DNA from: Acidobacteriota bacterium
GTDB lineage: Bacteria; Acidobacteriota; UBA4820; DSQY01
NCBI GenBank assembly: GCA_021833665.1
Contig: JAKBES010000009.1
Location: 1-34,001, forward strand
Reading direction: 5' to 3'
Length of the DNA stretch: 34,001 bases
In this document: positions 886-32,430 of the stretch, one piece after another
Position numbering within the stretch: the first letter of the stretch is position 1
Layout of the letters: every line of letters begins with the position of its first letter
Program-made: the position numbers and the translations under genes
Notes under the pieces: generated by a model
Database searches by the model: none
What the model was told of the DNA's origin: nothing
The model's input: the letters and a program-made list of their open reading frames with translations, nothing else

Positions 886-1974
886 TCACGTCCTCTTTCT
901 TGTGGCCGCCATGGCCACGGTCCGGTACGCCATGTGGGCGAACTTGGTGTACGGTGCGAATAAGAACAATGCGAAGATCAAGACCAGGTGAACGAAGTAG
1001 ACGGTGTACATGGCGGTCACCAGTTGCCCCGTGCGCAGGAGCTCGGCGGCGATGCCCGTGCTCACGATGCCCACGAGGATCAAAAGGAAGGACCAGTCAA
1101 AATACGTCGTGGCCTTCCTCTTTTCTGCATCCGCCAGGCGGTCCCCAAGCAGGATCAAGCCGCCCACGAGGACGACCGCCGCGCAAACGTTGGCGAAGAT
1201 CTTCCACGGATTGGTCCAAGCCAGCGGCGTGTGCATGAACCCCGCCATGGTGCCGATGCCCACCACCGTGCCCATGAGGGCCAGCCCCGCGAAGCCCCAG
1301 AGGGTCAGCAGGTGGCCCCAGAAGCGGTTTTTCTCCTTGCCGCATTCCTTGAAACGCTTGTGGGTCATGATCTCCACGGCGGCCGGGATGATGCCCGCAA
1401 GGATGGAGCCGTCCGCCCCCGAGGACCTCAGTCCCTTGATGAATTTGAAGAGCCCCATGGCGAAGGCCAGGAGCACGAGGCCCGACACGGCGAAGAAGAT
1501 GGGTTCGAGCACGTGAAGGGGGAAGACGTTGGCGAACTCCCTCGGCTCCGTGATTTCCTTGGGCCCCCAAAGGGCCAGGGCGCCGAAGACGAGAATCCCG
1601 GGGACGAAAAGGACGGGCCACGCCTTGGGGCTCGTGGCCATGCGGCTCAGGCACGACGGCGCGGCGAAGTGCTGGATGGCCTGGTTCCGCAAGGCTCCCA
1701 GCACGTTGCCGGGCTTGGCGCCGCGGGGGCACAGGGTGGTGCAGTCTCCGCAGTTGTGGCAGAGCCAGAGGGCCGGGTCCGCCAGAAGCTTGTCCTTGAG
1801 CCCCCACTGGGCCAGGATCATCTGCTTCCTCGGGAAGGGCGAGTCCTCGGGCGAGAGGGTGCACGCCACCGAACACGTGGCGCACTGGAAGCCCTTCTTG
1901 AGGTCGCCGCCTCCGGAAGCCAGAACATTCTTGATGAACTCGGTGTCGGGCGTGAGAAGAATGGGTTCGGCCAT
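886..1974 (-). CDS. qmoC: QmoC, quinone-interacting membrane-bound oxidoreductase subunit C (Fe-S + cytochrome b)
   Basis: 362 aa; N-terminal CxxC Fe-S motifs (CATCSVAC, CHNCGDCTTLCP) followed by a multi-helix membrane region; adjacent to qmoAB. Confidence 0.93.
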   Translation of the reverse strand: MAEPILLTPDTEFIKNVLASGGGDLKKGFQCATCSVACTLSPEDSPFPRKQMILAQWGLKDKLLADPALWLCHNCGDCTTLCPRGAKPGNVLGALRNQAIQHFAAPSCLSRMATSPKAWPVLFVPGILVFGALALWGPKEITEPREFANVFPLHVLEPIFFAVSGLVLLAFAMGLFKFIKGLRSSGADGSILAGIIPAAVEIMTHKRFKECGKEKNRFWGHLLTLWGFAGLALMGTVVGIGTMAGFMHTPLAWTNPWKIFANVCAAVVLVGGLILLGDRLADAEKRKATTYFDWSFLLILVGIVSTGIAAELLRTGQLVTAMYTVYFVHLVLIFALFLFAPYTKFAHMAYRTVAMAATRKRT

Positions 1975-2130
1975 GTCGTCCTCTTCAGAGAGGTGAGGAA
2001 GCGAGGAGGTGAGGAAGCGAGGAAGGACGAGCCGCCGGTCTTGCCTTCATCGCCGCTTCCATCTTCCCGCCTCCCCTTCTTCCTGACTTCCTAACTTCCT
2101 AAGCTTCCTTGCTTCCTAACGTCCCGACGC

Positions 2131-4386
2131 CTAGAACCCCTTGTAAGGATTGGGGCCGATCTCCCGGATTTTGTCCATGAACTCGTTGATGAGGACCGGC
2201 AGTTTGCCGTACTCGTTGATGGCGAGCTGGGTGACCTGGATCCGCTCCGACTCGAGCTGGAGCCGCTGCAGCGTCTCCTTCACGTTTTCGAGGCGGCGGT
2301 TGGCGAGCTCGCTGCCTTTGGCGAAGTGGCACTGGTAGTCGTCGCCGTATTTGCAGCCCACGAGCATGACGCCGTCGATGCCCCCGGAGAGCGCGTCGGC
2401 GATCCAGACGATGTTCATGGAGCCCAGGCACCGCAGGGGGATGATCCGCACGCTCGGGTCGTACTGAATCCTGTTCATGCCCGCGATGTCCAGGGCCGGG
2501 TAGGCGTCGTTTTCGCACATGAAGACCAGGACGCGCGGCTTCTCCTCGTCTTCCTCGGGAACCTCGATGGCCTTGATCTGAGAGGCGATCATGTCCACCG
2601 AGTAGTTCTTGAAGGAGATGATCCGCTCGGGGCAGGCCCCCATGCAGATGCCGCACCGCCGGCAGCGATAGGGGTTCGGTTTGGGCGTGCCCTTCTCGTC
2701 CTCGTCCAGCGTGCCGAAGGGGCACTCCTCCGTGCAGCGCTTGCACTGGGTGCAGCGCTGGAGGAAGAAGCTCGGGAAGGACATGTCCCTGGACCGGGGA
2801 TGGACCGCCTGTCCCTGGGCCGCCAGCTCCGTGGACTGGATGGCCTTCATGGCCGCGCCCAGCGCGTCCTCCTGAGCGTGGCCCGAATCCATGGGCGCCC
2901 GCACGGTCCCCGCCGCGTAAATGCCCGTGCGGCGCGTCTCGTAGGGGAAGCACACGAAGTGAGAATCGGGGAAACCGTAGCGCAGGAGCGGAAGATCGGG
3001 ACCCTGCCTGTAGGTCAAGTGGAGGATCTCGGTGCCCTCGTGGGCCTTGAGCTCCTCGGCCTTCTTTTCGGCCTCCTGGCGCTGGGTGTCGGACTCATTA
3101 CGCAGGACCTTGGCCTGGGCGTCGTGGAGCTGCCGGATGGCCTCGCCGTCCGCGGAATTGGGAACCATGCCCGTGGCCAGAACCACCAGGTCGACCACGA
3201 CCTGGATGGACTCGCCGAGCAGGGTGTCCTTCACGCGCACCGAAAGCTTGCCGCCCGCGGCCTTGCCCACGCCGTCCACCTCGCCCTTGGTGAGGAAGGT
3301 CCCGGGATGGTTCTGCACCTTGGCGTAGTACTTCTCGTACTGGCCGGGTGTCCGCATGTCCTTGTAAATGATGTAGACCTTGGCGTCCGCGTTCTGCTGG
3401 TGCACGTACTCCGAGTGCTTCAGGGTGGCCATGCAGCACACGGAGGAGCAGTAGGGCAGATGGGCCTGATCGCGTGATCCCGCGCACTGGACGAAGAGGA
3501 CGCTCTCCACGGCCTTCCCGTCGGAGGGCCGTTTGAGGGGTCCCGCGGCGGCCATTTTTTCGAACTCCACGTTGGTCACCACGTCGGGCGTCAGGCCGTA
3601 GCCCAGGTGCCCCAGCTTGGACGCGTCGTAGGGCTTCCAGCCTGTGGCCATGACGATGGCGCCCACCCGGTGGACGATGGTGCCGCCGTCTTTCAGCAGG
3701 GTCACATCGAACTGGCCGGGCTGGCCCGAGGTCTGGGTGATGGACGTGGAGGTGTACACCTTGATCTTGGGATGGTAGGTGGCGGCCTGAATCTGATCCG
3801 CCAGGTCCGCGGGCTCCATCTCCGTGTACGGGGCCTGCCGGGGGAAACGGCTCTTGAGCGTTCCCACGAAGCCGCCCAGTTGGGCCTGCTTCTCCACCAG
3901 CACCACTTCGTAGCCCGCCGCCGCCGCTTCCAAGGCCGCGGTCAGGCCGGTGACGCCGCCTCCCACCACGAGGATGGCCTTGCTCACTTCATCGGACACG
4001 GGCTCAAGGGGCTCCATCTTCTGGGCCTTGACGATCCCCATGCGGAGGTAGTCCTCCGCCATCATCTGGGTGTCTTCATCCTTGGGCTTCTGGCACCACG
4101 CCACGTGCTCGCGCAGGTTGACGCGTTCTTGCACCATGCACGGGTCCAAGGCGAAGGCCTCAGCCTTCACGCGGGGGGAGCAGGCGGCGATGACCACCGA
4201 GTCCACGGCGCCTTCCTGGAGATCCTTGTGGATCTGCTCGACTCCCTCCTTGCCGCATAGAAAGGAGTGCACGCGGCAGACGGGAGCCTTGTATTCCTTC
4301 TGGGCCACCTGGGCCAGCTTGTCCGTGTCGAGGGCGTCGCCGATGGAACACCCGCTGCAGATGTAGACGCCAAGTTTCTTATCCAT
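2131..4386 (-). CDS. qmoB: QmoB, HdrA-like flavoprotein with ferredoxin and MvhD-like C-terminal domain
   Basis: 751 aa; MDKKLGVYICSGCSIGDALD start, FAD motif VVGGGVTGLTAALEAAAAGYEVVLVEK, two 4Fe-4S motifs, MvhD-like tail. Confidence 0.94.
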   Translation of the reverse strand: MDKKLGVYICSGCSIGDALDTDKLAQVAQKEYKAPVCRVHSFLCGKEGVEQIHKDLQEGAVDSVVIAACSPRVKAEAFALDPCMVQERVNLREHVAWCQKPKDEDTQMMAEDYLRMGIVKAQKMEPLEPVSDEVSKAILVVGGGVTGLTAALEAAAAGYEVVLVEKQAQLGGFVGTLKSRFPRQAPYTEMEPADLADQIQAATYHPKIKVYTSTSITQTSGQPGQFDVTLLKDGGTIVHRVGAIVMATGWKPYDASKLGHLGYGLTPDVVTNVEFEKMAAAGPLKRPSDGKAVESVLFVQCAGSRDQAHLPYCSSVCCMATLKHSEYVHQQNADAKVYIIYKDMRTPGQYEKYYAKVQNHPGTFLTKGEVDGVGKAAGGKLSVRVKDTLLGESIQVVVDLVVLATGMVPNSADGEAIRQLHDAQAKVLRNESDTQRQEAEKKAEELKAHEGTEILHLTYRQGPDLPLLRYGFPDSHFVCFPYETRRTGIYAAGTVRAPMDSGHAQEDALGAAMKAIQSTELAAQGQAVHPRSRDMSFPSFFLQRCTQCKRCTEECPFGTLDEDEKGTPKPNPYRCRRCGICMGACPERIISFKNYSVDMIASQIKAIEVPEEDEEKPRVLVFMCENDAYPALDIAGMNRIQYDPSVRIIPLRCLGSMNIVWIADALSGGIDGVMLVGCKYGDDYQCHFAKGSELANRRLENVKETLQRLQLESERIQVTQLAINEYGKLPVLINEFMDKIREIGPNPYKGF

Positions 4387-5659
4387 GGTGAGCGCTCCTT
4401 ACAGCGCACTGGAGGGCCTTCAAGGCCGCACCCGTCGCGTCCTGCACCGTGGCCGAGACCTCCTCAGGCCGTCTCACGCACCCCGCGCCGTAGAACCCGG
4501 TCTTGCCCGGCCGGTTGTCCACGAAACCGAACTCGTCCAGCGTGGCGGCGGCGGGCAACCCCTGGGTCTGGGGCACGATGCCGGTGGCCAGCACCAGAAG
4601 GTCCACCCGCTCCGTGATCTTCTTGCCATGGAGCACGTCTTCCACTTCGAGGATCACGTCCTTGGTGGCGGGGTCTTCTTCGACCTTGGCCACTTTGCCC
4701 TTGATGAGTTCCACCATGGGGTCCGAGCTCACCTTGGTGTAGAAGTCTTCCAGGCGCCCGGGCGTGCGAATGTCGATGTAGAAGATCTTCACCTTCGCTT
4801 CGGGATAGGCGCTCCGGACGTAGGTGGCCTGCTTGAGCGAGGCCGAGCAGCACACCGCCGAGCAGTAGGGCAGGTGATTCTCGTCGCGAGAACCGGCGCA
4901 CTGCACGAAGGCCACCGTCTTGGGCTCCTTGCCGTCGGATGGGCGGAGGATCTTGCCCTGCGTGGGTCCGCTGACGGAGGCCAGCCGCTCCATGATGACG
5001 TTGGTGACCACGTTGGCGCAGCGGCCGTAGCCGAGGTTGGTGATCTTGGAGGCGTCGTAGGGAACCCATCCCGTGGCGGCGATGACGGCCGACACGCTGA
5101 TGGTTTTGGTTTCGGCCTTTTGGTTCAGATCGATGGCGCCGTAGGCGCATGCCTTGACGCACAAGTCGCAGCCGGCGGGGCATGCCTCCCGCTCCAGGGC
5201 GTAGAGGGCGGGGAAGGCGTTGGCCTGGGGAAGATACACGGCCTTCGTCTTGCTCATGCCGTAATCGAACTCGCTGGACCGCTCTGCGGGACAGACTTTG
5301 ACGCATTCTCCGCACTGGGTGCAGGCATCCGTCACGTACCTGGGCGAAATCTTGACGGTGGCGGTGTAGTCGCCCGGCGAACCCGCGAGATCCTGGACCT
5401 CGGCCTGGGTGAGCACCTGGATGCTGGAATTGGACTTCATGCGCTTGAAGTTGATTTCCAGGCCGCAGGCGGGCGGGCACAGCTTGGGGAAGTACTGGTT
5501 CATCCGGGCCACCCGTCCCCCGAGGGATGGCGCTCTCTCCACCAGGACCACCTGGCATCCCGCCTCGGCCGCTTCGATGGCCGCCGTGATGCCGGCCACG
5601 CCGCCGCCGATGACGAGGACCTTCTTCGCATCGGGCTTTCCAGAAGCTTCTTGCGTCAT
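4379..5659 (-). CDS. qmoA: QmoA, HdrA-like FAD protein
   Basis: 426 aa; VLVIGGGVAGITAAIEAAEAGCQVVLVERAPSLGGRVARMNQYFPKLCPP; 8-nt overlap with qmoB start. Confidence 0.94.
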   Translation of the reverse strand: MTQEASGKPDAKKVLVIGGGVAGITAAIEAAEAGCQVVLVERAPSLGGRVARMNQYFPKLCPPACGLEINFKRMKSNSSIQVLTQAEVQDLAGSPGDYTATVKISPRYVTDACTQCGECVKVCPAERSSEFDYGMSKTKAVYLPQANAFPALYALEREACPAGCDLCVKACAYGAIDLNQKAETKTISVSAVIAATGWVPYDASKITNLGYGRCANVVTNVIMERLASVSGPTQGKILRPSDGKEPKTVAFVQCAGSRDENHLPYCSAVCCSASLKQATYVRSAYPEAKVKIFYIDIRTPGRLEDFYTKVSSDPMVELIKGKVAKVEEDPATKDVILEVEDVLHGKKITERVDLLVLATGIVPQTQGLPAAATLDEFGFVDNRPGKTGFYGAGCVRRPEEVSATVQDATGAALKALQCAVRSAHHG

Positions 5660-5683
5660 GCTATTCCCTGCCTCTTAGGACGT

Positions 5684-6517
5684 CTATGGGGCTGAAGGGG
5701 CCGACGGCGCCGCTGACTCGGCGGCCTTCCGCCTGGCCTCGATGACCGACTTGCGAACCTTCATGGTCCGGTCCCCGAAGAGGCTGAACCGGAGCCACTG
5801 CATGGCGAAGTCCAGGAGTTCCTCGTCGTCCATGGCGATGGCCTCCGCCAGGGCTTCGTCCACCTCGAAGTACTCCATGAACTTGGTCTCGAACACGAAC
5901 CGGCGGAAGCGGTCCAGGTCATAGCAGGCCATGTAGACCATGTCGAGCTTGCCGGCGGGAATCCCTTCGGATTTGCTCCAGCCGGGGTGAAGCATGAGCG
6001 ATTTGAAGGAGGCGCCCATCATGTCGTACTCTTCCACGCCCTGGTTGGCGATCCACTCCCGGACCGTCCATGTGCGGCCCTCGCCGTGCCCCTTGCAGAG
6101 GTCCTCCTTGAGGAGGAAGTGGAAGGCGTGGTCCGTGGGGTTCGGGTTCTCGGGTTCCGCCGCCCCCAGCGGGTACATGCGGCACGCCCAAGGCCGGTCG
6201 CCGTAGACCGAACAGCCCTGCTCGCCCACGAAGGGACAGCGCTTGGCCTCGCCCTCCATCTTGAGCAGGACCACGGGGAAATTGGGTTCGCTGGTGACAC
6301 CCGTGATGGTGTGCTTCTCCAGAAAATCTGAGGAATCCATGTTCAGGACGCGGGTCAGTCTCAGGACGTCGTAGGGCGTGAGCACGATGGAGACGTCCTG
6401 GCAGCAGCACGTGAAGCACGAAACGCCTGGGCGGCATTCGAAGACGAAACGCTCGTCCGGCTTCATTCGCGGATAGTCTTTAAGGATGGTCTCTCGGGTA
6501 ATGGGCTTGTCAGTCAT
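5684..6517 (-). CDS. YkgJ-like cysteine-cluster protein (UPF0153-type putative metal-binding)
   Basis: 277 aa; [29 protein letters not shown]...[25 protein letters not shown] pattern. Confidence 0.85.
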
Positions 6518-6797
6518 GGAGGGGTTCCTTCTCGGCGAGAATGCCGTTTTTCAAGGCGTCCCGGGACCAAACGGGCAAGGGGCCCTTGTCCCCGGTGGCG
6601 GGATCCATTCGGTGGCGGTAGGACGCGGACACGTTGAACTGGCTCTGCATCCACTCCCAGCCGCGCACGAAGTAAGGGCAGTCGTCATTGAAACACACGA
6701 ACTGGAACTCGCCGCTCCAACTTCCCATTTCGGGATTGGCCCAGCGGGCCATGGGCTGGCTGCAGTGCGGGCAGAGGACCGGCTCTTCCAGAGTCAT
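6510..6797 (-). CDS. Small zinc-ribbon-like protein between aprA and the YkgJ-like gene
   Basis: 95 aa; CPHCSQPM...[18 protein letters not shown]; 8-nt overlap with the downstream YkgJ-like start. Confidence 0.8.
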
Positions 6798-6817
6798 TCG
6801 GGCGCCTTAAAAGAAGT

Positions 6818-6847
6818 GGAGGCCCCCGCCCCCCCGCGGGGGCCTCC
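6818..6847 (-). terminator. Strong hairpin between aprA and the downstream zinc-ribbon gene (terminator or attenuator)
   Basis: Perfect 12-bp stem GGAGGCCCCCGC / GCGGGGGCCTCC with 6-nt loop, followed on the minus strand by CTTCTTTTAA. Confidence 0.65.
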
Positions 6848-6887
6848 GTCAATTAGGAACTGATCAACGGGCGAGGAGTTCGTCCTC

Positions 6888-8792
6888 CTACGCCTGCGGG
6901 AAGATGTGCTTGATGGGACGTTTGATCATCTCCCAGTTGCCCGTCTTGGGATCGCACTTGCAGTTCGCGAAGACGAGCCAATCTTTGTCGTTGATCTTGG
7001 GCGTATCGGCGCGGAAGTAGTAGCCGGGCCAACGCGTCTCTTCACGGAACAGCATGGTGCGGACGTGCGCTTCGGCCTGCCACATACGGTGCTGGTTCTC
7101 CCAGCAGCGCATGAGCTCATGCAGGTTGGAGGCGGCCAGGTTCGCCGCGTCTTCCTTCAGCAAGCCAAGGAGTTCCAGCGCCCGCTCGAGCTGAGCCTTG
7201 TTGACCATGAACTGGGAGGACACGCCGCCCGCGTACTCGTCCATGATCTTCTGGAGGCGGAACATGAACATTCTGGGCTTGATGTAGTTGGGGTTGATCT
7301 CGGGATCGGTGGTGGCGTTCTTGTGGGCCTCGAAGGTCTCCATGGGCTTGAGGATCGCGGCCTTGAGGGCGTCGATCTCGGCCTGGTCAACCTTGGGCTG
7401 CGTGTTGTTCTCCACGATGAACTTGATCGCCGCCTTGGCCGTGATGCGCCCTTCGGCGTGGGAGCCCGAGGAGAACTTGTGGCTGGAGGCGCCCGAGGCG
7501 TCGCCGGCGCAGAAGAGGCCCTTCACGGTGGACATGTTGTCGTAGCCCCAGAAGTACTCGCTCTTGGTCTCGGCGGTCTGGAGATCGGCGGGGCCGGAAA
7601 CCCAGGCGCCTGACGCGCCGGAGTGGGAGCCGATGAAGTAGGGCTCGCAGGCGGCGATCTCGGAGCTCCTGGTCTCGGGCTCCACGTTGCTGGCGGCCCA
7701 GAGAATGGCCTGGGAGATGGTCATGTCGAGGAAATCTTCCCACGCCTCGGACTCGAGTTCCTTCATCTTTTTCTTGTAGGCCTTCGGATCGTCCTTGTAC
7801 TGCTCGGCGATCTTCTGGATGGCTTCCTCGGTCCGCATGAAGATGGGGCCCTTGCCCTCGATCAGATCGAGCATGCCGAGGTAGTTGCGGAGGTTGGCCG
7901 GGATGGGCTTCACGCGGCCGTAGGGGCCCCAGTTGTCCAGCTCGGGCCTGCGCTCGACCATGTACTCGCCGCCCATGGCGTTGGTGGCGCGGGACTTGAA
8001 GAGCAGGAACCACGCACCCACCGGTCCGTACGCATCCTTGAAGCGGACGGGGATGAAGCGCACTTCCTGGCAGGTCATCTCGGCGCCGGCCTTCAGGGTG
8101 AAGTAGGCCGAAGAGCCGGAGTTCCACGGCGGATACCAGGCGCGGCCGAGGCCTTCGCCCATGCTCCGCGGCTTGAAGACGTGCACGGCGCCGCCCATGG
8201 TGGCCATGGTGGCTTTCGCCTTGAAGATGTAGAACTTGTTCTCGCGCACCGAGAAGCCCACGGCGCCGGCGACGCGGTCGCCGTCCATGAGGGGCCCGAC
8301 GATGAACACGCGCTCGAAGATCTGGCCCACGCCGCTCTGCAGCAGGGCGTTCTTGGCGGCTTCCGCCACGATCACCTTGTAGGATTCGCCGTTGATCATG
8401 AGCTGCCAGCGGCCCTCATGAACGTAGGCGCCCTTCTCGTCCTTCCAGATGGGAAGGCCCCACTTCTCGAAAAGGTGCACGGTGGAGTCCACGTGGCGGG
8501 CGATGTTCGCCACCAGGTCCTCGCGGGTCACGCCCATGAGGTCGTTGCGGACGTAGTCCACGTAATCCTTGACGCTGTTGGCCCCGTCCTTCAGGCCCAC
8601 GTACTGGTTGATGGCGGAAAGGCCCATGGCCACGGCGCCGGAACGGTCCATGGCGGCCTTGTCGACCAGGGTCACCTTCAGGCCGTTCTGCTTGGCCCAG
8701 TACGCTGCTTCCACCGCTGCTCCGCAGGCAGCCATGCCTCCCCCGAGGATCAGGAGGTCGGTCTCTACGACGACGGTCTCAAAGTTGGCCAT
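6888..8792 (-). CDS. aprA: Adenylylsulfate (APS) reductase alpha subunit
   Basis: 634 aa; FAD-binding N-terminus TDLLILGGGMAACGAAVEAAYWAKQNGLKVTLVDKAAMDRSGAVAMGLSAINQY; downstream of aprB. Confidence 0.97.
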   Translation of the reverse strand: MANFETVVVETDLLILGGGMAACGAAVEAAYWAKQNGLKVTLVDKAAMDRSGAVAMGLSAINQYVGLKDGANSVKDYVDYVRNDLMGVTREDLVANIARHVDSTVHLFEKWGLPIWKDEKGAYVHEGRWQLMINGESYKVIVAEAAKNALLQSGVGQIFERVFIVGPLMDGDRVAGAVGFSVRENKFYIFKAKATMATMGGAVHVFKPRSMGEGLGRAWYPPWNSGSSAYFTLKAGAEMTCQEVRFIPVRFKDAYGPVGAWFLLFKSRATNAMGGEYMVERRPELDNWGPYGRVKPIPANLRNYLGMLDLIEGKGPIFMRTEEAIQKIAEQYKDDPKAYKKKMKELESEAWEDFLDMTISQAILWAASNVEPETRSSEIAACEPYFIGSHSGASGAWVSGPADLQTAETKSEYFWGYDNMSTVKGLFCAGDASGASSHKFSSGSHAEGRITAKAAIKFIVENNTQPKVDQAEIDALKAAILKPMETFEAHKNATTDPEINPNYIKPRMFMFRLQKIMDEYAGGVSSQFMVNKAQLERALELLGLLKEDAANLAASNLHELMRCWENQHRMWQAEAHVRTMLFREETRWPGYYFRADTPKINDKDWLVFANCKCDPKTGNWEMIKRPIKHIFPQA

Positions 8793-11703: not shown

Positions 11704-12780
11704 ATGTTCGACTTTCTCATCGCTGGCATCCAAGCCCCGGCCTTCCTGCTCATCTTCACGGGCTTCACGGTGGGCGTCGTGGGCGGGTTCATCGGCGTGG
11801 GCGGCGGCTATATGGTGACTCCCGCCCTCATCGTATTCGGGTTCCCGGGTTACATGGCCTCGGGCATCGACATGACGCACATCGCGGGGAAGGGCATCGT
11901 CTCCACGGTGAGGCACAAGCAGCTCGGAAACATTGACTGGGTCCTGGCCCTGAGCATGGTGGCCGGAACCATGTTCGGCGTGGAGGAGGGGATCCGCCTC
12001 TTGGGCTACTTTAAGCACCGGGGGCTCTCCACCGTGGCCCTCCTCTCCGCGTCAGTCCTTCTCATGTTCACCCTGTTTCTCTACACCCTCTACGAGACCC
12101 TGAAGTCGCACCGGCGCATGGAGCAAATGGCTCGTGACGGCCAGAGCATCGCCCGGGAGGTCATGACCTCCAAGCTGCCCCAAATCTTCCAGGGGTTCGC
12201 CCTCGCGCCCATCGTCCGGTGCCGGACGGCCCGCGTCGTGGTGTCCATGTGGGTCATCGTCCTGGTCGGAGTCATCACGGGCGTCCTCGCGGGATTCCTG
12301 GGCGTGGGCGGCGGCTTCATCCGCGTCCCGGCCCTCGTGTACATCGTGGGTGCGTCCACCCACATCGCCGTGGGCACCGATCTGGTGGAGATCGTCTTCT
12401 CGGGAGCCTACGGTTGTCTCCGCCACTCCATCGAGGGCAATGTGGACTTCATCGCCGTGATGTTCATGATCTGCGGCGCCATGTTCGGAGCACAGGTGGG
12501 ATCTATCGCTACGGCCTTCGTCCGGGGACCGGCCATCCGGTACATGCTTTCCTTCTCGCTGGCGCTGGCCACGCTGGGCGCCGGTCTCCCGCTGGCGAAC
12601 CTTCTTTTGGGGGGTAAATTCAAAATTCTCGTGGCCCTGTCGGTGATCATCACCCTGGGCCAGATGTTCTTCCTGTGCCTGTTTATTTTCTCCTTGGTTT
12701 ACTTCGCCTACCGCAACCGGCGGAACGAGTGGGTGCCCGAATGGGTGGCGCCGCTCCTGGTTCAGAACGTCACCGAGTGA
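11704..12780 (+). CDS. TauE/SafE family sulfite/anion exporter
   Basis: MFDFLIAGIQAPAFLLIFTGFTVGVVGGFIGVGGGYMVTPALIVFG and a repeat GVITGVLAGFLGVGGGFIRVPALVYIVG; duplicated TauE motif. Real start inside ORF 11026-12780. Confidence 0.92.
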   Translation: MFDFLIAGIQAPAFLLIFTGFTVGVVGGFIGVGGGYMVTPALIVFGFPGYMASGIDMTHIAGKGIVSTVRHKQLGNIDWVLALSMVAGTMFGVEEGIRLLGYFKHRGLSTVALLSASVLLMFTLFLYTLYETLKSHRRMEQMARDGQSIAREVMTSKLPQIFQGFALAPIVRCRTARVVVSMWVIVLVGVITGVLAGFLGVGGGFIRVPALVYIVGASTHIAVGTDLVEIVFSGAYGCLRHSIEGNVDFIAVMFMICGAMFGAQVGSIATAFVRGPAIRYMLSFSLALATLGAGLPLANLLLGGKFKILVALSVIITLGQMFFLCLFIFSLVYFAYRNRRNEWVPEWVAPLLVQNVTE

Positions 12781-12792
12781 GGGAGGACTGCC

Positions 12793-12900
12793 ATGAAAAA
12801 AGTGCTGGACAACATGTGGTCCTTCGTCTTCATCCTGCTCGCGATCTCCATGGGACTGTCCACCTTGGTGTTTTTCCTGTACATGCGCACGCTGGTGTAG
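12793..12900 (+). CDS. 35-aa single-TM microprotein
   Basis: MKKVLDNMWSFVFILLAISMGLSTLVFFLYMRTLV; GGGAGG SD upstream; sits tightly between tauE and the next micro-ORF. Too short for the ORF track. Confidence 0.7.
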   Translation: MKKVLDNMWSFVFILLAISMGLSTLVFFLYMRTLV

Positions 12901-12909
12901 GAGGAGGCC

Positions 12910-13113
12910 GTGAAGAAACTATTCCAGGTATTCGCCAACCTGCTGCTCTACGGCTTTCTCGTGTTTTACGCCGTGGAATCGACGTTTTTAAAGCCGGACC
13001 CGTGGTTCGCCTTCGTCGTCTGGTTCCTCTTGTCCGTCGCGCTCCTCATTACGGTCACCCCAGGCCTCCACGCCCGCGGGATATCCCCGGGCGAATATCC
13101 TTATGAGGATTGA
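12910..13113 (+). CDS. 67-aa small membrane protein (GTG start)
   Basis: (M)KKLFQVFANLLLYGFLVFYAVESTFLKPDPWFAFVVWFLLSVALLITVTPGLHARGISPGEYPYED; GAGGAGG SD. Confidence 0.7.
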   Translation: MKKLFQVFANLLLYGFLVFYAVESTFLKPDPWFAFVVWFLLSVALLITVTPGLHARGISPGEYPYED

Positions 13114-24719: not shown

Positions 24720-24746
24720 AGGCATATGCCTCCCGTGGCATATGCC
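24720..24746. promoter_or_regulatory. Tandem palindromic operator candidate between divergent SUMT-fusion and TmcC/DsrM-like operons
   Basis: AGGCATATGCCT-CCCGT-GGCATATGCC: two copies of the 10-bp palindrome GGCATATGCC, 16 bp centre to centre. Confidence 0.5.
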
Positions 24747-24864
24747 CCAAAGAGAACGACTGTGCGCGGCGGACTCGCACAGACTCGTCTTAAGACCTAT
24801 TGTAATTAAAGTCGGCCTCGATCTCGGCAGGAACCACGAGGCACCACTCAGGGGAGGAAGAGGA

Positions 24865-25800
24865 ATGAGCGTTTTGGTCTATTTGGCGCTTTACGCGGGT
24901 GCCGCGGTCTTCGTCGCCGCGTCTCTGGTGAGGGCGTGGATGTACGCGCGGGCCCCCCTCCATCTGCGCTGGGAGCTGTACCCCGTACCCCACGAGGACC
25001 CGGCCAAGGTCAAACACGGGGGCTCCTACTTCGAAGACAAAGACTGGTGGACCCACAAGCGCGCCTACAATCTGGCGGGCGAGCTGGGCGTCATGGTTCC
25101 TGAGATGCTCTTCCTCAAGGCCCTTCACGAGTTCAACAGGAAGCTCTGGTACCGCTCCTTCCCCTTCCACTTCGGCCTCTACCTTCTCATCGGGGCCTGC
25201 GGCCTCCTTCTCCTGGCGGCCCTCCTGGGCCTCTTCGCTCCCACGCTGATGGCGGGCGCCCTGGGCATGGCCTTTCACTGGCTCTACACGGTGGTGGGCG
25301 TGGCCGGGGTGGCGCTGGCCCTGGTGGGTGCCGTCGGCCTCCTGCACCGCAGGCTGACGGACGAAGATCTCAAGACCTACACCACGGCGGGAGACATCTT
25401 CAACTTGCTGTTCTTCATCGTGTCCTTCGGCGTGCTCTGCGCCGGATTCCTGCTCAGGGGCCCCGGGGGCCCGGGCGTTCTGGCCATGGTGCAGGGACTG
25501 CTGACGTTTAACAAGACCTTAGAAGTGCCGGGACTCCTCGCGGTGGGCATCGTCCTCTGCGCTCTGTTGGCCGCCTATATTCCCCTGACCCACATGTCGC
25601 ACTTCGTGGGCAAGTACTTCACCTATCACGACGTGCGTTGGAACGACCAGGTCAACCTCCGGGGCAGCAAGATCGAAGCGAAGCTCGTGGAGTATCTCAC
25701 CTACAAGCCCACCTGGTCCGCGCCGCACGTCACCGCAGACGGCAAGAGGACCTGGGCCGACGTGGCCACGACCAACCCTTGGGAAGGGGCCAAGAAATGA
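24865..25800 (+). CDS. NarI/DsrM/TmcC-like membrane cytochrome b
   Basis: MSVLVYLALYAGAAVFVAASLVRAWMYARAPLHLRWELYPVPHED...; His-containing TM helices; SD GGGGAGGAAGAGGA; start at 24865 within the longer ORF. Confidence 0.85.
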   Translation: MSVLVYLALYAGAAVFVAASLVRAWMYARAPLHLRWELYPVPHEDPAKVKHGGSYFEDKDWWTHKRAYNLAGELGVMVPEMLFLKALHEFNRKLWYRSFPFHFGLYLLIGACGLLLLAALLGLFAPTLMAGALGMAFHWLYTVVGVAGVALALVGAVGLLHRRLTDEDLKTYTTAGDIFNLLFFIVSFGVLCAGFLLRGPGGPGVLAMVQGLLTFNKTLEVPGLLAVGIVLCALLAAYIPLTHMSHFVGKYFTYHDVRWNDQVNLRGSKIEAKLVEYLTYKPTWSAPHVTADGKRTWADVATTNPWEGAKK

Positions 25801-27404
25801 CCGACAAGATCAAGCTCACCGATATGTCCCTCCCGGGCAGGAAGCCCCTGGCCCACGTCGAGAACAAGGACCTCATGCCCCTGCCCTATCCCCTCGAATC
25901 TCCCGAGAAGGACCACGGGTGGACGGCCCTCACGGAGAAGGTGATGGGGGCGGTGGAATGCGGACTCGACGACACCTGCGCCCTCAACATCCCCCAGCCC
26001 AAGACCAAGGAGGAGGAGGACGAGCTCGTCAAGAAGTTCCTCGCGGGCCTGGACAAGCTCTTCACCAAGGAGAATAACTGGACCTTCCTTCAGCCCCTGG
26101 TGCTGTCCATGGAGCACTGCGCCAAGTGCCAGACGTGCTCCGACGCCTGCCATATCTATGAGGCGAGCGGCGGGAACGAACTCTACCGGCCCACCTTCAG
26201 GTCCGAGATCGTGCGCCGGCTCTACTTCAAGAGCGTCAAACACGGCGGCGTGCTCTCCGCGTGGCAGCACGGCGACATCGAGATCAACTGGCCGCTGGTG
26301 GCCCGCCTGGCCGAGCTGGCCTACCGCTGCAACCTCTGCCGCCGGTGCGCCCAGACGTGCCCCATCGGCGCGGACAACGGCCTGGTGGCCCACGAGCTCC
26401 GCAAGCTCTTCAGCATGGAGCTGGGCATCAGCGCCAAGGAGTGCCACGACAACGGCTCCGTCCTCCAGCTCAAGGTGGGGTCCTCAACGGGCATGAGCTC
26501 TCTGGTGGTGAAAGACAACATCGAGTTCATCGACGAGGACATGACGGAAAAAACGGGCATCAAGGTTGAAACGCCGTGGGACGTGGAGGGGGCCGACGTC
26601 CTGCTCATCCACAACGCGGGCGAAATCATGGCCTGGCCCGAGAACCCCGGCGCCTTCGCCGTGATCCTCAACGCCGCGGGCATCAAGTGGACCCTCTCCT
26701 CCGAGCTGGCGGGCTACGACTCCATCAACTACGGACTCTGGTACGACGACGCGCAGTTCGCCCGGGTGGCCATCAAGCACGCCCAGGCGGCCAAGAATCT
26801 CGGCGTGAAGAAGATCGTCCTGGGCGAGTGCGGCCACGCCCACAAGGCCCTGTCGGTCATCGCCGACCGGGTCCTGACGGGCGATCTCAACATCCCCCGC
26901 GAAAGCTCCATGACCCTCCTGCGCGACATCGTCATGAACGGCCGGCTCAAGCTCGACCCCAGCCGGAACGACTTCCCCGTCACCCTCCACGACCCCTGCA
27001 ACATGGTGCGGCTCATGGGCGTGGTGGAGCCGCAGCGCGAGGTCATCCGCAAGATCTGTCCCCAGTTCCGGGAAATGTGGCCCCACGGCGTGGACAACTA
27101 CTGCTGCGGAGGCGGTTCGGGCTTCGCCATCATGAGCGGCAACAACTTCCAGGACTGGCGCTTCCACGTCTCCGGCCGGAAGAAGATGGAGCAGGTGCTC
27201 AATGCCTTCTCCGACTGCATGGACCCCTCCATCCACAAGTACATCTGCGCGCCGTGCAGCAACTGCAAGGGCCAGTTCCGCGACATGCTCGCCTACTACG
27301 ACATGTGGGCGAAGCAGAGCATCCTCTACGGCGGGTTGGTGGAGCTGATCGTCAACTGCATGGTGGACGCCAAGCCGGGCTTCATCGACTGGGAGTGGCA
27401 CTGA
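25797..27404 (+). CDS. HdrD/DsrK/TmcB-like Fe-S protein with CCG domains
   Basis: CAKCQTCSDACHIY, CNLCRRCAQTCPIG, LHDPCNMVRLMG, DNYCCGGGSGF; ATGA overlap with the upstream cytochrome b. Confidence 0.88.
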   Translation: MTDKIKLTDMSLPGRKPLAHVENKDLMPLPYPLESPEKDHGWTALTEKVMGAVECGLDDTCALNIPQPKTKEEEDELVKKFLAGLDKLFTKENNWTFLQPLVLSMEHCAKCQTCSDACHIYEASGGNELYRPTFRSEIVRRLYFKSVKHGGVLSAWQHGDIEINWPLVARLAELAYRCNLCRRCAQTCPIGADNGLVAHELRKLFSMELGISAKECHDNGSVLQLKVGSSTGMSSLVVKDNIEFIDEDMTEKTGIKVETPWDVEGADVLLIHNAGEIMAWPENPGAFAVILNAAGIKWTLSSELAGYDSINYGLWYDDAQFARVAIKHAQAAKNLGVKKIVLGECGHAHKALSVIADRVLTGDLNIPRESSMTLLRDIVMNGRLKLDPSRNDFPVTLHDPCNMVRLMGVVEPQREVIRKICPQFREMWPHGVDNYCCGGGSGFAIMSGNNFQDWRFHVSGRKKMEQVLNAFSDCMDPSIHKYICAPCSNCKGQFRDMLAYYDMWAKQSILYGGLVELIVNCMVDAKPGFIDWEWH

Positions 27405-28407: not shown

Positions 28408-29571
28408 TTAATCCGCGCCGCCCAGGGCGGCCCCGGAGATGCGGAACTCCCAGCCGCAGTGTCCATGGGTCTCCGGCTCGGGCGGACAATGAAGGCACCG
28501 GGCTTCGATGCGCCTGTCCACCGTGCGGGCGAAGGTCTCGAACTCCACCTCGCCGACGCTCTTGCAGGGAAAGTCGGGGAGGCCCTTTCGGTGGCGCGTC
28601 TCCTGCACGCGGCACGCCTCCATGTAAAACCGCAGCACGCCGCCATCCTCGCTCCACTCCACCCGGTAGGGATTGATGAAGCTGTACATGCGGTACGCGA
28701 GGGCCCGTTCAAGCGCGCGAAGGCCCCCGCCTGGGGGAATCGAGAAGGCCTCCATGATGCGCCTCGCCTCGGCGGCGGCGAACAGGCGCCAGGAGGCGGC
28801 ATCGAGTTCCACGGCGGTCTCCAGACCGTAGCGCTTCTCCGCGGCAAGAAACCAGCAGCCGTCGTGGGCGAGCCAGTTCTTGGCGAAGACGCCCAGGGCA
28901 TTGAATAAGCCCCGACGATCAAGGGCCGCGAACACGGGAGGCGCCCCCTCATCGGCGGAGGTTTGGAGGACGGCTGCCCGGTGAAGATGGCCCTCCCGAA
29001 GCGCCAACTCTTTCGCGCCCAGGCCAGAGAGAAAGCCCCGCGACCAATCCAGGGTTACGGGCCCTTCCGGGTGGACCCGTCCCTCTTCCGCGTGTACGTC
29101 AGAAACCAGGGCGAAGCCTTCGGCGGAAAATTCACCTAGAATAACCAAGCCGCCTGGCCTGACCACCCGCAGCACTTCCTTGAGAACTGCCGCACCGTCC
29201 GCGAGATGGTGGAGCACATCCATGGTCACGGCGCACCCGAAATATCCGTCCGGAAAGGGAAGCGCCGCCCCGTCCGCGAGGGTGAAGCGGATGCGTCCGG
29301 CGAGGGCCGGATCATCGGTGAGAAAGGCCGCCACCTGCTGGTCTTCGACGGCGACGTCCACGCTCGCCACCTCAAGGCCGCGGCGCGCCGCCTCCCGCGC
29401 CATGAGCCCCATACCCGTCCCCAGATCCAGAACGGGGCCTGCCAAGGAGCCCGCGGCATCCAGTACGAAGGCCGGAGCAACGAGCCGGTCGAATCCCAGG
29501 CTTTTGTATTGAGCCGTCCGCGTCCAGAAGTGAGCCTTGCGCCGATCCAATTCCTCGGGCGTGAGCGCCAT
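28408..29571 (-). CDS. Class I SAM-dependent methyltransferase fused to a DUF6125-like C-terminal domain
   Basis: GPVLDLGTGMGLMAREAARRGLEVASVDVA...VTMDVLHHLADGAAVLKEVLRVVRPGG; C-term GCWFLAAEKRYGLETAVELDAASW...FYMEACRVQETRHRKGLPDFPCKSVGEVEFETFARTVDRRIEARCLHCPPEP. Confidence 0.82.
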   Translation of the reverse strand: MALTPEELDRRKAHFWTRTAQYKSLGFDRLVAPAFVLDAAGSLAGPVLDLGTGMGLMAREAARRGLEVASVDVAVEDQQVAAFLTDDPALAGRIRFTLADGAALPFPDGYFGCAVTMDVLHHLADGAAVLKEVLRVVRPGGLVILGEFSAEGFALVSDVHAEEGRVHPEGPVTLDWSRGFLSGLGAKELALREGHLHRAAVLQTSADEGAPPVFAALDRRGLFNALGVFAKNWLAHDGCWFLAAEKRYGLETAVELDAASWRLFAAAEARRIMEAFSIPPGGGLRALERALAYRMYSFINPYRVEWSEDGGVLRFYMEACRVQETRHRKGLPDFPCKSVGEVEFETFARTVDRRIEARCLHCPPEPETHGHCGWEFRISGAALGGAD

Positions 29572-29695: not shown

Positions 29696-30418
29696 TTAGA
29701 AAGCGCTTTTGACCTTCCACTCCTTCCAGACCTTTCCCGTGAGTTCGGGCCTGGGCGTGAGCGTGGGCCTCCCGGGCTGCCAGCCGGAGGGCGTCACCTC
29801 CCCGGTCTTGCGCACGTGCTGGAAGGCTTTGATCTGGCGGACCAGCTCCGTTACGTTGCGTCCCACGGGGGGCGTGAGCACCTCCATGGCCTGGATGACT
29901 CCGTCGGGATCGATGATGAACCGGCCCCGGATGTCCACCCCGGCGGCTTCGTCATAGATGCCGTAGGCGGTGCCGATGGCTCCTCCCTGGTCGGAGAGCA
30001 TGGGAAAGGGCACGCCGCCCTTCACCATCTTGGAGAGCTCCTCCTCCTGCCAGATGAGGTGGGAGAACCGGCTGTCCGTGGAAACGGAGAGGACCTCGAC
30101 GCCGAGTTTTTTGAGTTCGGGATGCGTGGCGGCGACCGCCGCCAGTTCGGTGGGTCAGACGAAGGTGAAGTCGCCGGGGTAGAAGCAGAGCAGAACCCAC
30201 TTCCCCCTGAAGTCCGACAGCTTGAAGTTCTTGAAGGCTCCGGCGAAGAAGGCTCCCGCCTCAAAGTCGGGCGCCGGCTTGCCTACCCGGGCCACATCCA
30301 TCCTCGATGGCTCCATCATCGCCTCCTTGACCGAAGCACCTGGGGACGTCTTTTTGACGACCCCGCCCGCCGGTTCCACGCAACCCGTCTTCTTGGATAC
30401 GCTCTTTTTTTCCGCCAT
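29696..30418 (-). CDS. Selenocysteine-containing AhpC/Prx-type peroxiredoxin with in-frame UGA at 30155-30157
   Basis: ATG at 30418 with GGGAGGG SD; reading through UGA gives ...[75 protein letters not shown]..., one 240-residue frame from the two ORF-track pieces 30155-30511 and 29696-30028; UGA aligns with the peroxidatic Cys of FYPxDFTFVCPTE. Confidence 0.9.
30127..30144 (-). promoter_or_regulatory. Candidate bacterial SECIS hairpin
   Basis: mRNA 5'-UGA-CCCACCGAAC-UGGCGGC-GGUC-GCCGCCA-3': perfect 7-bp stem, GGUC loop starting at the 18th nt after UGA. Confidence 0.82.
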
Positions 30419-32187: not shown

Positions 32188-32430
32188 TCAGTCGTAGGAT
32201 GCCATAACTTGGGTGCCTACCACCACGGGAAGACCGAACGCCGCTTCGATAAAGGCCTTGAAATCAGCGATTTAGGGGCACGGAGGATATCCAACGATCA
32301 GCCCCGTGGCGAGGTGGATGGCCTCCGATCCGTTCCTTTTCATTTCCTCGGGCACGTGCTCCACGTTTCCGCCGGGACAGCCGCCGCATTCGCGGTAGCG
32401 GTCGCACGGAATGATGCCGATCGTCTTCAT
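32188..32430 (-). pseudogene. CGGC-domain protein remnant with in-frame TAA
   Basis: MKTIGIIPCDRYRECGGCPGGNVEHVPEEMKRNGSEAIHLATGLIVGYPPCP-TAA-IADFKAFIEAAFGLPVVVGTQVMASYD; TAA at 32272-32274 interrupts a frame that stays homologous-looking on both sides. Confidence 0.75.

Follow-up and report, generated by a model that had tools for sequence, protein, structure and literature searches.

A peroxiredoxin gene interrupted by TGA at its catalytic codon in an Acidobacteriota bacterium is a predicted selenocysteine-encoding prxU

A peroxiredoxin gene whose catalytic codon reads TGA raises the question of whether the gene is broken or whether it encodes selenocysteine (Sec). We addressed this question for a locus in a 34,001-nucleotide stretch of DNA from an Acidobacteriota bacterium, referred to here as the window. 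Mechanical ORF calling splits the gene into two pieces, 30511-30155 (118 aa) and 30028-29696 (110 aa), and translation bears out an earlier note on this DNA, which had described two fragments parted by a UGA. Read through, the minus strand from 30418 to 29696 forms a single 240-codon gene with one in-frame TGA, a start codon ATG at 30418-30416, and a stop codon TAA at 29698-29696. The ATG is preceded by AAAGGGAGGG, with GGGAGGG as a purine-rich ribosome-binding stretch just upstream. The plus-strand reading of the same stretch was rejected, as it yields no peroxiredoxin. Further TGA-bridged frames are present elsewhere in the window. The gene and its TGA are as follows.

29696..30418, minus strand: prxU, predicted selenocysteine peroxiredoxin of 240 aa with Sec at residue 88 (read-through translation, NF040737 match, homologues)
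30155..30157, minus strand: in-frame TGA, predicted Sec88 at the peroxidatic position (codon 88; structure alignments; clade-wide TGA)

The read-through product (MAEKK...) matches Pfam AhpC-TSA (2.4e-38) and 1-cysPrx_C. Its AlphaFold model has a mean pLDDT of 87, with high confidence in the core, and the top PDB match of the model is human Prx2 (7kj1), at 44% identity. The TGA aligns exactly with the peroxidatic Cys of human Prx2 and AcePrx-1, in agreement with the earlier note, which had placed the UGA at that residue of a full AhpC/Prx-type protein. Among profile models, the product scores 383.2 bits against NCBIfam NF040737 (PrxU, thioredoxin-dependent peroxiredoxin, equivalog; cut-off 270) over model positions 2-232 of 233, and it falls below the cut-off of the AhpC model TIGR03137. 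We therefore assign the predicted protein to the already described PrxU family. The suggestion of a PrxU-type selenoperoxiredoxin is thus supported by this match, by homologues with the same TGA, and by the Sec machinery of the genome; that the class is established also held, but the mis-annotation as a pseudogene that had been expected is avoidable, since a curated NCBI model exists.

We then compared the gene with its homologues. A genome of the same genus, G002, encodes a PrxU protein that is 99% identical and carries TGA at the same codon. From the TGA to the end of the gene, all 16 codon differences between the two copies are synonymous (dN 0, dS 0.15), and the stretch after the TGA is evidently under purifying selection. 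For a wider view we used a clade set made up of relatives' genomes and 80 loci of GTDB genomes, the latter being the best 80 of more than 590 candidates; one record is present twice (L027 and L071), and L124 was left out because the motif pattern is absent from it. TGA occupies the equivalent of codon 88 in 94 of the 95 readable members of this sample, across many phyla. Because the TGA is kept in G002, because the codon differences stand at 16 to 0, and because TGA recurs in 94 of 95 clade members, its placement at the catalytic codon is, as judged from these alignments, far beyond chance.

The sole member without TGA in this sample, which includes the best 80 of more than 590 candidates, is L115, from a Chloroflexota MAG, which has TGC. 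In a phylogenetic tree, the Sec clade stands apart from Cys peroxiredoxins with support of 96/97, and L115 falls inside the clade; its TGC is perhaps a reversion from Sec to Cys. The L115 version (L115:3501-4118) keeps the Cys ten residues before the catalytic position and has EMTPAGW where the canonical resolving Cys would stand. A search of phage DNA gave no match to prxU, and IMG/VR held distant peroxiredoxins only (identity of at most 43%) and no close PrxU.

These comparisons bear on two simpler explanations of the in-frame stop. If an AhpC gene had recently been broken by a nonsense mutation that hit the catalytic Cys by chance, an in-frame stop is what would be seen, and genuine decay does occur nearby, in a CGGC-type gene. 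However, we count the TGA in 94 of 95 homologues across phyla as refuting this explanation, and the absence of nonsynonymous changes past the TGA, the Sec machinery in the genome, and a covarying hairpin 3' of the UGA (see below) also stand against it, so that we regard a pseudogene as extremely improbable, as the earlier note had argued in calling a random nonsense mutation hard to credit. Misreading of TGC or TGT as TGA might be suspected in a draft assembly of 408 contigs, but the same TGA is present in independent assemblies from the same genus, including G002, and from many phyla, and we consider such an error to have almost no chance of being the cause. The neighborhood of prxU, including the decayed gene, comprises the following features.

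28408-29571, minus strand: methyltransferase domain fused to DUF6125, just downstream of prxU
32209-32426, minus strand: CGGC-type gene (MKTIGIIPCDRYRECGGCPGGNVEH...) with an in-frame TAA (compared with G002)
886-8792 and 24742-27404: genes of sulfate metabolism (HdrA-like qmoA/B; qmoC and aprA, both above cut-offs)

The CGGC-type gene lacks segments that are found in the open G002 copy (L133, ~12540-12960). Lying beside prxU, it is by all appearances a real pseudogene and a useful contrast. Adjoining prxU on the same strand are genes for a cysteine-synthase-like PLP enzyme and a ferritin-like/Dps-like protein. Elsewhere, some members of the PrxU family have rubrerythrin, catalase, rhodanese, or cytochrome bd genes as neighbors, and no constant operon partner emerged among 96 neighbor proteins. 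The window also encodes a DsrK-like protein (327 bits, below the cut-off of 400). Judged by its gene content, the source bacterium is a dissimilatory sulfur metabolizer.

The earlier note had proposed a search of the whole genome for selA, selB, selC, and selD, and all four were found, selA as a half-gene. The tRNA-Sec scores 72.8 bits and has the anticodon TCA; selB includes its C-terminal part (332 bits joined); and selD lies at locus L018 (G000:C18 5935-6855, minus strand). The selA gene is cut off after its first half by the end of a contig (266 bits; model positions 5-229 of 455), and it is full-length in G002. Overall, selA was detected in 15 of 16 genomes with a close TGA-bearing PrxU homologue, with no selA match in the remaining PrxU-bearing relative, G107 (750 contigs). 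In the source genome, selD is a selenoprotein gene in its own right; its Sec-SelD motif, HGAGUACK(I), contains a TGA in frame.

An insertion signal is expected in the RNA just after the UGA, and we identified a candidate at this location.

30127..30144, minus strand: SECIS-like hairpin UGGCGGC-GGUC-GCCGCCA (silent-site compensatory changes, 89 sequences)

The hairpin has a 7-bp stem and a GGUC loop; it begins 10 nt after the UGA, and its loop begins 17 nt after the UGA. Taken by itself, it is unexceptional for GC-rich sequence (MFE z of -1.1; synonymous-redraw z of -0.3), and the case for a SECIS element therefore rests on the family. Because single-sequence MFE z-scores were too weak, we tested the pairing of the fixed hairpin and its covariation across 89 distinct sequences. 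In this set, 93.7% of hairpin cells were paired compared to 75.0% after shuffling, double-change cells numbered 145 compared to 50.8 after shuffling, and covariation was 0.502 compared to at most 0.152 when the partner strand was slid. When synonymous codons were redrawn, the Sec family showed 6.51 of 7 pairs where 5.04 were expected, whereas Cys homologues showed 3.07 where 3.09 were expected, indicating no hairpin. Pairs 15-30 and 18-27 each link two third codon positions and appear in all four Watson-Crick types; they are therefore not explained by protein conservation.

Nearly all of the 89 sequences have a GGUC or AGUU loop, and the central G-U is kept. Alignment columns 21 and 24 (window positions 30137 and 30134), the first and last bases of the loop, covary as well, being G..C in 49 and A..U in 36 of the 89, as if these outer bases pair and expose only the G-U. 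Bacterial SECIS elements are described in part of PMC1088965 as having a small apical loop with a G. The loop of the prxU family fits that description, and a stem-loop with a G in its apical loop lies directly 3' of the UGA. A scan of the whole window against Rfam at the gathering threshold gave no match.

The hairpin and the Sec machinery also weigh on the possibility that UGA is suppressed or is decoded as another amino acid under a changed code. The frame would be open with any residue inserted; however, the TGA falls at the catalytic residue, the genome has tRNA-Sec, selA, selB, and selD, and 3' of the UGA lies a SECIS-type hairpin whose G-U loop is conserved, leaving this possibility very remote. 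We assign a probability of roughly 0.96 to the reading as a whole, in which the gene encodes PrxU, UGA88 is decoded as Sec through SelB and the hairpin, the protein attacks peroxide, another thiol resolves the product, and the function is peroxide defense. Under this reading, the product would be a peroxiredoxin of the AhpC/Prx1 fold, and SelB with Sec-tRNA(Sec) would bind the hairpin 3' of the UGA, so that codon 88 is decoded as Sec. By analogy with the family, Sec88 would attack peroxide and become a selenenic acid. Since this protein has Thr in place of the usual resolving Cys, the selenenic acid would most likely be resolved by Cys78, by Cys13, or directly by a thiol donor from outside the protein, such as thioredoxin. 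PrxU would then serve in peroxide defense in a sulfur-metabolizing, probably anaerobic bacterium.

Three residues of the predicted protein bear on how the selenenic acid may be resolved.

29792..29794, minus strand: Thr209 at the resolving-Cys position (GEVTPSGW versus GEVCPAGW in alignments)
30185..30187, minus strand: Cys78, at position -10 relative to Sec (no exception among the sampled Sec members)
30380..30382, minus strand: Cys13 of the N-terminal G-C-x-x-P-x-x-G motif (Sec-family alignment)

In the sample that includes the best 80 of more than 590 candidates, the resolving Cys is missing from 82 of 94 Sec members and kept in 12. Its replacement is Thr in most of the 82, and Met, Ile, and Ala also occur; approximately nine changes on the tree are needed to account for Thr at this position. 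All 94 Sec members of that sample (best 80 of more than 590 included) have a Cys ten residues before Sec, compared to mostly Phe in Cys homologues, although the public scan used two search patterns and one of them, LCFYPGDF, includes this Cys and may inflate the invariance. The same Cys is present in all 16 genomes that were found without that pattern. The N-terminal Gly-Cys motif, GCVEPAGG in the window protein and GCARPTGG elsewhere, occurs in 85 of the 94 (again with the best 80 of more than 590), and residues 11-20 around Cys13 are fairly ordered in the AlphaFold model, with a mean pLDDT of ~75, above the flanks. In our literature search on how PrxU works, no passage dealing with the resolving residue was found.

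Two mechanisms may be considered within the selenoprotein reading. PrxU may be a true 1-Sec peroxiredoxin that forms no internal bond and whose selenenic acid is reduced directly by an external thiol. The 82 of 94 Sec members without a resolving Cys are consistent with this, as are nine of the 94 that also lack the N-terminal Cys (one of them, L126, is cut by a contig edge), eight of which keep only the Cys at -10. However, a Cys that is invariant with Sec and mostly Phe with Cys suggests a role tied to Sec, and we rate the 1-Sec mechanism slightly below an even chance. Tentatively, and with odds nearer to one in three, most of the PrxU family, having dropped the resolving Cys, would use an unusual internal thiol, from the Cys at -10, the N-terminal Gly-Cys tail, or both, to resolve the selenenic acid. 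If true, PrxU would follow a catalytic cycle distinct from others of the AhpC/Prx1 fold.

Overall, an apparently broken gene is supported, on genomic evidence, as an intact selenoprotein gene, the range of PrxU is extended to a sulfur-metabolizing Acidobacteriota bacterium, and a family-wide alignment of the PrxU SECIS with clear silent-site covariation is now at hand. The PrxU class itself is already known, and the pattern of the resolving Cys is the less ordinary part. Its scarcity in a Sec-using 2-Cys fold poses a testable question: does selenium make the usual resolving thiol unnecessary?

The founding selenoperoxiredoxin, PrxU of Eubacterium acidaminophilum, was described by Sohling et al. 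2001, as cited in passages of PMC13188914 and PMC8533274. As the type has been known since then and is listed for many anaerobes, the window gene is a further member, resembling PrxU (NF040737) over its whole length, including the N-terminal part, with predicted Sec at the peroxidatic position. Sections of bacterial selenoproteome surveys (PMC1794560, PMC1088965, PMC13188914) list a selenoprotein family named "Peroxiredoxin (Prx), TxxU", for which the relevant part of PMC1794560 names Syntrophobacter, Syntrophus, and other anaerobes as hosts. The T85-F-V-U88 of the window protein fits TxxU, and the source bacterium would be one more host. With typical 2-Cys peroxiredoxins (AhpC, human Prx2), the window protein shares the fold and the C-terminal 1-cysPrx_C region. 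It differs from them in having Sec for the peroxidatic Cys and, where a typical 2-Cys enzyme has its C-terminal resolving Cys (EVCPxxW), Thr209, and it adds Cys78 and an N-terminal extension with Cys13.
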